51,200 bases of DNA from the NCBI GenBank assembly GCA_022071945.1, contig JAJVIN010000016.1:1-51200 (forward strand), in the 5' to 3' direction. Position numbers and translations under genes: made by a program. Shown in pieces: positions 36,959-39,305 of the stretch (within the stretch, counting starts at the first letter, position 1; each line of letters starts with the position of its first letter). The DNA is from Thermoanaerobaculia bacterium (lineage in GTDB: Bacteria; Acidobacteriota; Thermoanaerobaculia; UBA5066). The notes beneath the pieces are model-generated. The model made no database searches, was not told the DNA's origin, and worked only from the letters and a program-made list of their open reading frames with translations.

Positions 36959-38416
36959 TCAGGCGGAGAGTTTCCGGACCGCTTCCCTGAAGGCCCGCTG
37001 AGCCTTCTCATCGGGAATCTGAGAAGACAGGTGATTGACGAGGCCCTCATAGCTGTGGGCCTTGGCGGCCGCTTTCTTCACGATCACCCGCGCGAGGGGG
37101 CCCACGTGACCCGCCAGGAGTTTCTCGATCCTGTCGAGAAGGTCCGGAGGAAAGCCGATGGCGGTGACGGATGTGCCGGTCGTGCGGCTCGCGGTGACGG
37201 GTGTTCCGCTGGTGGCCGTCGGGCCGAGGGCCGAGGGCTGACTCGGGGGCTTCAGCTGGCCGGAGGAGGAGACACCGGTCAGGAAGGATTTCCGCTGGGC
37301 GCTGTCGGGAATCTGCTCGGCGATGAGCTGCACGAGCTCGGGGATGTCGGTGGCCGTCGTGGCGGCCTTCTTCACGATGAGTTTCGCCATCGGGCCCACG
37401 AACCGGGAGAGGCGGTCCTCGAGGGCGAGGAGCTGAGAGGCTGTCCACGGTTCGGAGGGCGGGATCTGAGAGACGCTGGGCGCGGACGGGGCGACCCTGG
37501 TGCCGGGCTGAGCGAGGGGCATGACGATTCTGTCCGTGTCCGCGGGAGGCGCTTTCTTGGGCGCGCTTGCTGGCCCGAACTGGCCGGTCTGGATGAGGTA
37601 GAAATCCCGGTCGAGCTGGTAGACGTCACGGTATCGGCTCTCGCGGTCGATCGCCATCATTTTCCGGATGACGGTCGTGATTCCAGGGCTGAGCTCTGGT
37701 TTGAGCGACCTCGGGTCGGGACGGTCCGCCTGCAGGTGCGCCATCATCACCTTCGCGCCGGTCGCGCCGGCGAACGGCGGCTTGCCCGTCAGGAGATGGT
37801 AGAGCGTTGCGCCGAGGGAATAGATGTCGACCCGGGGGTCCAGGTCGCGGCGTCCCTCGACCTGTTCGGGCGAGATGTAGTGGGGGGTCCCGGCGGAGAA
37901 TCCCGTGGCGGTCAGTCCAAGGTCCTCATCGACCTGGCGGGCGAGGCCGAGGTCAACGAGCTTCAGTTGCCACTGCTTCGTGATCATGAAGTTGTCGGGC
38001 TTGATGTCTCTGTGGATCAAGCCGGCTCCATGGGCGGCGCTGAGGGCGACGCAGGCCTGCCGCATGAGCATCAGGGCCTGCTCCTCGGGAAAAGAGCCCC
38101 AGTGTCTGAGGAGAGCGCCGAGGGACGGCCCGTCGACGAACTCCATGGCGATGTAGTAGCGCTCCTCGACCTGCCCGAAATCGTAGATGTGGACGATGTT
38201 GGGGTGGTTGAGGCGGGCCGCGAGCTTCGCCTCCTGCATGAATCTCTGGACGAACGTCTGGTCCTTGGCGATCTGGGGCGAGAGGATCTTCAGGGCGGCA
38301 TCGCGCTCGAGGTGAGAGTGCCGTGCCAAGAGGACTTGGCCCATCCCGCCCTTCCCGATCTCCTTCACGATCCGGTAAGAGCCAAAGACGGTTCCGGCGG
38401 CGACTTCGCTGCTCAC
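36959..38416 (-). CDS. Soluble Ser/Thr protein kinase with two C-terminal repeats
   Basis: This is a Hanks-type kinase of 485 residues with no membrane segment. Kinase residues are Gly-loop GKGGMG (21-26), Lys43, Glu62, HRD at 135-137 with Lys139 and Asn142, DLG at 155-157 (DFG variant, common in bacteria), and SPEQ (182-185). The catalytic domain ends near 275. A Pro/Ser/Thr-rich stretch leads to two copies of a 50-residue unit: residues 330-381 (with FVGPMAKLIVKKAATTATDI) and 426-480 (with HVGPLARVIVKKAAAKAHSY). Both end in QIPD-x(4)-R-x-F. I do not recognise this unit by name; it may be a known DUF. It starts 10 bases after the haem-sensor gene, so the two should be co-transcribed. Confidence 0.9.
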   Translation of the reverse strand: MSSEVAAGTVFGSYRIVKEIGKGGMGQVLLARHSHLERDAALKILSPQIAKDQTFVQRFMQEAKLAARLNHPNIVHIYDFGQVEERYYIAMEFVDGPSLGALLRHWGSFPEEQALMLMRQACVALSAAHGAGLIHRDIKPDNFMITKQWQLKLVDLGLARQVDEDLGLTATGFSAGTPHYISPEQVEGRRDLDPRVDIYSLGATLYHLLTGKPPFAGATGAKVMMAHLQADRPDPRSLKPELSPGITTVIRKMMAIDRESRYRDVYQLDRDFYLIQTGQFGPASAPKKAPPADTDRIVMPLAQPGTRVAPSAPSVSQIPPSEPWTASQLLALEDRLSRFVGPMAKLIVKKAATTATDIPELVQLIAEQIPDSAQRKSFLTGVSSSGQLKPPSQPSALGPTATSGTPVTASRTTGTSVTAIGFPPDLLDRIEKLLAGHVGPLARVIVKKAAAKAHSYEGLVNHLSSQIPDEKAQRAFREAVRKLSA

Positions 38417-38426
38417 GGTGCCGCGC

Positions 38427-39305
38427 TCAGTTTCCTTCCTCGAGCATCGAGATGGCCTTTTTCAGGCTGATCTTCATACGAGAAAACGAGCTCGCCAGCA
38501 TCGCCACTTCGTCCTTGCCAGAGATAGCGACGTCTTCGGCCTCGAAGTTGCCGAGGGAGACCTCGTCCGCCGTCCTCGCGAGCCGCCGGATGGGACGGAC
38601 CACGATGAAGTGGAGGAGCAAGTTCATGACGACGAGAGTGAAGACGAAGATGACGAGCAGGGAGGTGATGAGGGCGCGCATGGCATCCTCCGCCATCTTC
38701 AGAGGCACCGACATCGGGACGGAAACGAGCTGAGCGCCGATCACCTCGTTCAGCTTCCAGCCGAACCCGTTGTTCGCCCCGTACATCTTGATCATCGAAG
38801 CCGGGGCCGCCTCGGGCGTCGAGTGGCAGGTCAGGCACTTGGCGTCCTTGATCTGGATCGGGTGGCTGAGGTAGAGCGACCGGCCCTGGGGGGTGTCGCG
38901 TTCACCCACGATCTCCTTCTTCTTCTCGTCGTTGCGGAAGGCATTGACGATATCGGCCTCCCACTCGACGGTCCGGTCCCGGGGATTCGTCGGGTTGAGC
39001 GTCGCTTCCTTGTAGGCGTATTCGGGGTTGGTCTGCCTGAGGTAGGCGAAGATCTCGGTCGCCGAGTAGGCGGGCACGGTCTGGGGAATGAACTTCTCGG
39101 CGAGCTGGTACTCGACCAGGGGTTTGACCTGGTTCACGGTGTAGCTGCGGACGGCCTGAGCGGTTTCCATCATGATCCGGGCGTTCGCCAAGACCTGTTC
39201 CCTCGCGTTCCTCTGCATGGTCTTCGAGGAGACGATTCCCGCGGGGATGAGAGCCCCGCAGAAAACCAGAAGAAGGATCAGATTGAACTTGACCAGGAGG
39301 TTCAT
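38427..39305 (-). CDS. Membrane haem-c sensor (DUF3365/Tll0287-like) with HAMP and no output domain
   Basis: The product is 292 residues. A first membrane segment lies at about residues 8-26, a periplasmic sensor domain at 27-205, a second membrane segment at 211-235 and a HAMP domain at 236-285 (VVRPIRRLARTADEVSLGNF). CLTCH at 157-161 is a covalent haem-c motif, and the surrounding TVNQVKPLVE and YLSHPIQIKDAKCLTCHSTP fit the DUF3365/Tll0287 family of redox sensors. The protein ends soon after HAMP with no kinase, cyclase or chemotaxis output. The kinase gene starts 10 bases downstream. Ligand could be O2, NO or redox state. Confidence 0.88.
   Translation of the reverse strand: MNLLVKFNLILLLVFCGALIPAGIVSSKTMQRNAREQVLANARIMMETAQAVRSYTVNQVKPLVEYQLAEKFIPQTVPAYSATEIFAYLRQTNPEYAYKEATLNPTNPRDRTVEWEADIVNAFRNDEKKKEIVGERDTPQGRSLYLSHPIQIKDAKCLTCHSTPEAAPASMIKMYGANNGFGWKLNEVIGAQLVSVPMSVPLKMAEDAMRALITSLLVIFVFTLVVMNLLLHFIVVRPIRRLARTADEVSLGNFEAEDVAISGKDEVAMLASSFSRMKISLKKAISMLEEGN

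Follow-up and report, generated by a model that had tools for sequence, protein, structure and literature searches.

A haem sensor ending in HAMP and a soluble Ser/Thr kinase with STAC-like repeats as a probable split receptor in Thermoanaerobaculia

A membrane haem sensor of a Thermoanaerobaculia bacterium ends in a HAMP domain, and the next gene encodes a soluble Hanks-type Ser/Thr kinase with two C-terminal STAC-like domains. Judged from sequence comparisons, the two proteins probably constitute a split receptor, in which the haem sensor would signal through HAMP to a kinase tethered in trans by its STAC-like domains. The window, which is the whole stretch of 51,200 nucleotides analysed, belongs to a genome of 6.17 Mb in 69 contigs. 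The features of the pair are listed in Table 1.

Table 1. Features of the sensor and kinase genes, with positions in the window
Feature	Position	Strand	Evidence
Sensor gene, sCache_heme and terminal HAMP, 292 aa	38427-39305	(-)	ORF and Pfam; orthologues 61-67% identical, same ends
Periplasmic sCache_heme/Tll0287 domain (PF11845), residues 31-197	38715-39215	(-)	Pfam E 1.9e-42 to 2.2e-42
CLTCH haem-c attachment motif, residues 157-161	38823-38837	(-)	sequence
HAMP domain, residues 235-282	38460-38603	(-)	PF00672 E 5.3e-10
Soluble Hanks-type Ser/Thr kinase, 485 aa	36959-38416	(-)	Pkinase E 1.6e-52; AlphaFold mean pLDDT 84.8
Kinase domain, residues 14-262, catalytic residues intact	37631-38377	(-)	Pfam and motif inspection
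First STAC-like domain, residues about 320-389	37250-37459	(-)	profile match; folded, flexible linkers in model
Second STAC-like domain, residues 418-485	36962-37165	(-)	profile match; model pLDDT 88.5; Foldseek best match Af1502

The sensor consists of a TM helix, the periplasmic PF11845 domain with CLTCH, a second TM helix and HAMP. The standard relay of signals in bacterial receptors is HAMP, a domain whose prototype structure is that of Af1503. Here, 10 residues are left after HAMP according to Pfam; HAMP is the sole cytosolic part and an output domain is absent. This is as described in the earlier note, which saw a DUF3365-type membrane protein with CLTCH and HAMP and no output. Among 77 terminal-HAMP proteins, the overrun past the HAMP profile is at most 5 residues in 74 and at most 17 in all. 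In the orthologues HAMP is kept up to the last residues, its conserved end reading SF-RM-ISL-KA--ML, and CxxCH is invariant. Based on its sequence, the sensor can be assigned to the sCache_heme family, with haem c attachment predicted from CLTCH. It is the single DUF3365/Tll0287 (PF11845) protein found in the genome by profile search. CxxCH is present in 70 of 71 related sensors, and an additional Cys in none. Tll0287 differs in having a second Cys that caps the iron. The cysteines of CLTCH are the only ones in the haem domain of this sensor, which is therefore without an axial Cys of the Tll0287 type.

The kinase gene starts ten bases after the sensor stop (gap 38417-38426), and the earlier description of a soluble Hanks kinase at this distance is correct. 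The catalytic motifs GKGGMG, K43, E62, HRDIKPDN, DLG, and SPEQ are those of a Hanks-type kinase. Its best NCBIfam match is PknB_PASTA_kin, at 302.8 bits against a cut-off of 450, which places it outside the PASTA-kinase family PknB/Stk1. It shares the kinase fold with these membrane Hanks kinases and differs from them in being soluble, in having no PASTA, and in that its input would come from a second protein. No TM helix, PASTA, or other C-terminal Pfam match was found in the kinase. Neither HisKA nor HATPase was detected by Pfam in the sensor or its kinase partner, and thus the pair is not a two-component system. A repeat of about 64 residues occurs twice in the C-terminal part of the kinase; it contains the motif [VIL]GPxA and matches nothing in Pfam or NCBIfam. 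This 64-residue repeat domain was given the working name REP and is called STAC-like later on. The genome contains two copies of REP, both within this kinase, and in the AlphaFold model of the whole kinase both are folded and sit on disordered linkers.

The earlier note had proposed conservation of the gene pair as a check on the coupling, and its lack as an argument against it; the pair is conserved. The kinase is directly downstream in all eight genomes of the same GTDB family that have a full-length sensor, while REP is absent from the six members of the family that have no sensor. Among the 149 genomes of the class, the sensor is seen in 16, REP in 17, and both in 16; the hypergeometric chance of this overlap is about 1e-20 if kinship is ignored. 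The extra REP match, in G147 (E 3e-5), lies in an implausible gene frame and was judged spurious. No neighbours beyond the pair are common to most of the 12 acidobacterial loci. The pairing in the family (8/8), the co-occurrence in the class (16/16) and the unconserved flanks indicate that the adjacency is more than chance. Long frames at L003 and L006 (751 and 689 aa), considered as sensor-kinase fusions, proved to be open sequence upstream of the sensor.

In the window, the pair is flanked on one side by a sulfate-type ABC transporter with an Rrf2 regulator (region 32512-36872) and on the other by a CPA2/TrkA_N antiporter with a quinone-reductase-like gene (KefB/KefF-like; region 39936-42424). 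These transporter and antiporter neighbours are not conserved. Shortly upstream of the sensor is a small ORF of 92 aa (39455-39733, minus strand) without a match in Pfam or NCBIfam.

A survey of 84,980 named genomes with the sensor as bait yielded 31 loci. A gene with REP adjoins 23 of the 24 sensors with terminal HAMP, whereas it adjoins none of the seven sensors without HAMP (p about 3e-6, by counting and with kinship ignored). The single HAMP sensor without such a neighbour, L044, counts against the split receptor. What carries REP depends on the lineage. It is a kinase in Acidobacteriota and in L034 of Eremiobacterota, a TIR protein in Massilia, Duganella, and Rugamonas, and a class III cyclase-like protein in Marinobacter and one gammaproteobacterial MAG. 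The arrangement of the genes varies too: in Thiothrix the REP kinase is upstream of the sensor, and at L114 of the acidobacterial genome G104 the sensor and its TIR-REP partner are encoded tail to tail on opposite strands. At three loci (L035, L037, and L038), the gene after the TIR protein with the STAC-like domain starts with a SLOG-type domain resembling VTGHRDLHPDD. This gene order suggests a putative operon of the nucleotide-messenger or conflict type.

Sensors of Verrucomicrobiota are mostly without HAMP and without REP. In two related MAGs, TIR is fused in frame, N-terminal to the haem sensor (L045:971-2605 and L046:263-1621). The only Verrucomicrobiota sensor found with HAMP came from a further scan and is in G1205. 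Directly downstream of it is a TIR and REP sequence (L302:3072-3917, minus strand), and the expectation that a HAMP sensor has a REP neighbour held here. This sequence is spread over three frames, which indicates a broken gene or assembly errors. At four other loci (L049, L051, L303, and L304), a haem sensor without HAMP directly follows a kinase ORF of 950-1190 aa without STAC. Pfam detects an FGE-sulfatase domain in the kinase ORF of L049, and the kinase of L303 appears to carry its own TM helix. Perhaps the HAMP-less sensor and the large kinase ORF represent a second route of sensor-kinase coupling.

REP itself was also used as bait, in a search made blind to the neighbouring gene in 390 Pseudomonadales and 300 Burkholderiales genomes. 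All 18 new REP loci of Pseudomonadales have an adjacent haem sensor with HAMP. Burkholderiales contain 36 REP loci, one of them at a contig edge, and 28 of the 35 evaluable loci have an adjacent HAMP-terminated protein: 22 haem sensors with HAMP and six HAMP-terminated proteins without the haem domain. In the two orders together, REP is adjoined by a HAMP-terminated membrane protein in 46 of 53 evaluable loci. Pfam identifies the partners at L227 and L230 as dCache-HAMP proteins. At L222-L225 the periplasmic part of the partner is short and haem-less, and the terminal HAMP was assigned by Pfam in L222 and L223 and by our own HAMP profile in L224 and L225. Pfam confirmed HAMP in all four non-haem partners tested. 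Seven REP loci have no HAMP neighbour (L207, L209, L211, L218, L221, L228, and L229) and count against the split receptor; four of them are in genomes that also have a paired locus (G634, G696, and G650).

The tally over all loci comprises 84 REP proteins, of which 75 are encoded within 400 bases of a terminal-HAMP protein. The sensor comes first in 66 of these pairs and the output in eight, and one pair is on opposite strands. REP is otherwise rare (5/398 Pseudomonadota genomes). Across the loci the output is exchanged while REP is kept (Ser/Thr kinase, TIR, and class III cyclase), and the sensor is exchanged while HAMP is kept (haem-Cache, dCache, and haem-less). REP is the sole element constant across kinase, TIR, and cyclase, and it follows HAMP where haem is absent; the kinase repeats therefore fit best as the putative contact, as had been supposed. 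More generally, the proposal that the missing HAMP output would be the neighbouring kinase is supported by all the sequence tests run.

Some of these loci have further characteristics. Those at L222-L225 encode proteins of two STAC-like domains alone, beside the HAMP-terminated protein and a gene resembling that of quinolinate synthase (nadA). The output-less dCache-HAMP proteins (L227:4365-6384 and L230:976-2686) adjoin STAC proteins with an N-terminal part resembling DUF4388; the resemblance is at E 4e-4 in L230, and L227 has no Pfam match.

STAC is defined by Af1502, the gene of which is translationally coupled to that of Af1503, a receptor with HAMP as its sole cytosolic part (PMC4834066). 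Stand-alone STAC proteins have the motif LGPx(x)A in common (PMC4834066); in the STAC fold, a four-helix bundle of two hairpins, it is placed between helices 1 and 2. The two repeats of this kinase contain it as VGPMA and VGPLA, and [ILV]GPxA is seen in most of 93 REP domains, with G invariant. A reference STAC profile was built from seven SLC5-linked histidine kinases of the CbrA/CrbS type in Pseudomonadales genomes. That this profile represents STAC is confirmed by its match to 10ed, a solved SLC5-STAC histidine kinase (E 2.1e-6). In hhalign, REP matches this profile with probability 85 and E 6.6e-6 over 50 columns with GP in register, a moderate match with a single-pair E-value. The best of 40 column-shuffled controls gave 0.019, and unrelated segments 0.058 or worse. 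AlphaFold2 predicts a single REP as a compact helical domain (pLDDT 88.5), and Af1502 is its best match by Foldseek among 350,542 PDB chains (probability 0.84, TM 0.58, E 1.0). The model has three helices, with a long helix 1 running through the GP motif, and Af1502 has four. This helix number makes the fold comparison the weak point of the STAC assignment as modelled. A PDB sequence search with the REP profile gave Af1502 at E 0.4 amid unrelated matches, which is not significant, and a shorter profile did no better. In VIA-align, where Af1502 scored Z 5.1, NorQ and KIX ranked ahead of it at Z 5-6 and were taken as common helical arrangements. The link to an SLC5 transporter, typical of multidomain STAC, is absent from this pair and is optional for stand-alone STAC (PMC5715377). 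Three separate lines, the motif with the profile, the predicted fold, and the genomic coupling to terminal HAMP, all point to a resemblance between REP and STAC, and based on them REP can be identified as STAC-like.

The closest known system is Af1503/Af1502. In both cases, a receptor with HAMP as its only cytosolic part adjoins a gene whose product contains a small helical domain with LGPx(x)A, with a resemblance in profile and, as modelled, in fold; here the gap between the genes is 10 bp. Af1502 differs in having 68 residues, no catalytic part, and no haem, and in being archaeal and near a metal-ion transporter. The earlier note knew of no described system with this combination. Given the Af1503/Af1502 precedent (PMC4834066), the split arrangement is not without parallel. 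In bacteria, STAC has been described in histidine kinases linked to SLC5 and in GGDEF proteins (PMC4834066, PMC5715377). In the literature covered, where the STAC authors are represented by their later accounts (PMC4834066, PMC5715377), neither STAC attached to a Ser/Thr kinase, TIR protein, or cyclase nor a stand-alone sCache_heme-HAMP sensor with a STAC-type partner was found described. Thus, a split HAMP receptor with a STAC gene was known in archaea, and what appears new is the catalytic outputs on the STAC-like domain.

In CbrA and CrbS, too, STAC is flanked by a membrane module and a catalytic output, although they are single polypeptides with a transporter instead of a HAMP receptor and a histidine kinase instead of a Ser/Thr kinase, TIR, or cyclase. 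STAC of CbrA is docked on the cytoplasmic face of the membrane module (PMC13022988), which is a precedent for STAC reading such a module. No growth phenotype was seen when STAC was deleted from either CbrA or CrbS (PMC5715377), and this counts against the split receptor. On the sensor side, the output-less sCache_heme-HAMP protein WP_033902098 of Pseudomonas azotoformans is a dimer at full length, holds NO tightly and releases it slowly, and forms no stable complex with O2 (PMC12889525). It shares the output-less architecture, haem c (predicted here), and the lack of an axial Cys with our sensor; it differs in that no output partner is named for it in that paper. The redox or gas sensing supposed in the earlier note is thus better supported for NO or redox state and less so for O2, as judged from this relative's protein (PMC12889525).

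The following mechanism can be proposed for the split receptor. The haem c of the periplasmic Cache domain would sense NO or redox state. HAMP is a parallel four-helix dimer. The two TM helices and the dimeric HAMP would carry the change inward, and the two flexibly tethered STAC-like domains of the kinase would dock on the end of HAMP. The conformation of HAMP might then determine how the kinase domains are paired or oriented, leading to phosphorylation of targets. Docking between HAMP and STAC, the signal direction, NO as the ligand, and control by induced proximity are the parts that we infer. Hanks kinases, TIR domains, and class III cyclases are commonly controlled by association, which would explain why these outputs are exchangeable.

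The adjacency could also reflect a common stimulus or regulon without contact, the kinase being independent and the sensor acting via an unlinked histidine kinase or chemoreceptor. Co-transcription alone could explain the close spacing, and the STAC-bearing kinases at L207, L209, L211, and L218 have no HAMP neighbour. It is nevertheless unlikely, because the kinase is swapped for TIR or cyclase while the STAC-like domain persists, because adjacency is kept despite varying gene order and strand, and because HAMP and the STAC-like domain are gained and lost together.

The signal might instead run from the cytoplasm to the sensor, with the STAC-like domain as a dimerisation or regulatory domain that tunes a sensor or transporter, as proposed for Af1502. 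Korycinski and Lupas proposed a regulatory role of STAC in solute transport (PMC4834066), and the STAC-STAC proteins without output at L222-L225 adjoin HAMP-terminated proteins. Most loci, however, have a catalytic output on the domain, and the paired membrane proteins have periplasmic sensor domains and are not transporters, so that this direction is quite improbable. Stand-alone sCache_heme proteins such as Tll0287 act as redox proteins (PMC12889525), and the haem protein could accordingly be an electron carrier or redox buffer with HAMP as a remnant, paired with the kinase through general redox stress. This would be the most far-fetched of the three explanations, as HAMP is kept to the last residues, haem-less dCache proteins terminated by HAMP pair with the same STAC-like domain, and the sensor lacks the axial Cys found in the redox type.

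For the split receptor, the distribution of the STAC-like plug across bacteria suggests that the output of a receptor can be a separate, swappable part. It seems, on balance, that HAMP and STAC form a general bacterial plug in trans to soluble kinase, TIR, class III cyclase, or DUF4388-like outputs, in the main branch of which a haem-c NO sensor drives Ser/Thr phosphorylation or TIR. If so, STAC-like domains would be the readers of terminal HAMP, which would answer the puzzles of the output of Af1503 and the role of STAC, and the HAMP-STAC question becomes testable in ordinary bacteria. The missing partner of stand-alone sCache_heme-HAMP sensors would be named, and the two parts would offer a ready-made scaffold for synthetic receptors. 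Ser/Thr kinases and TIR enzymes would gain a periplasmic haem input for NO or redox state.
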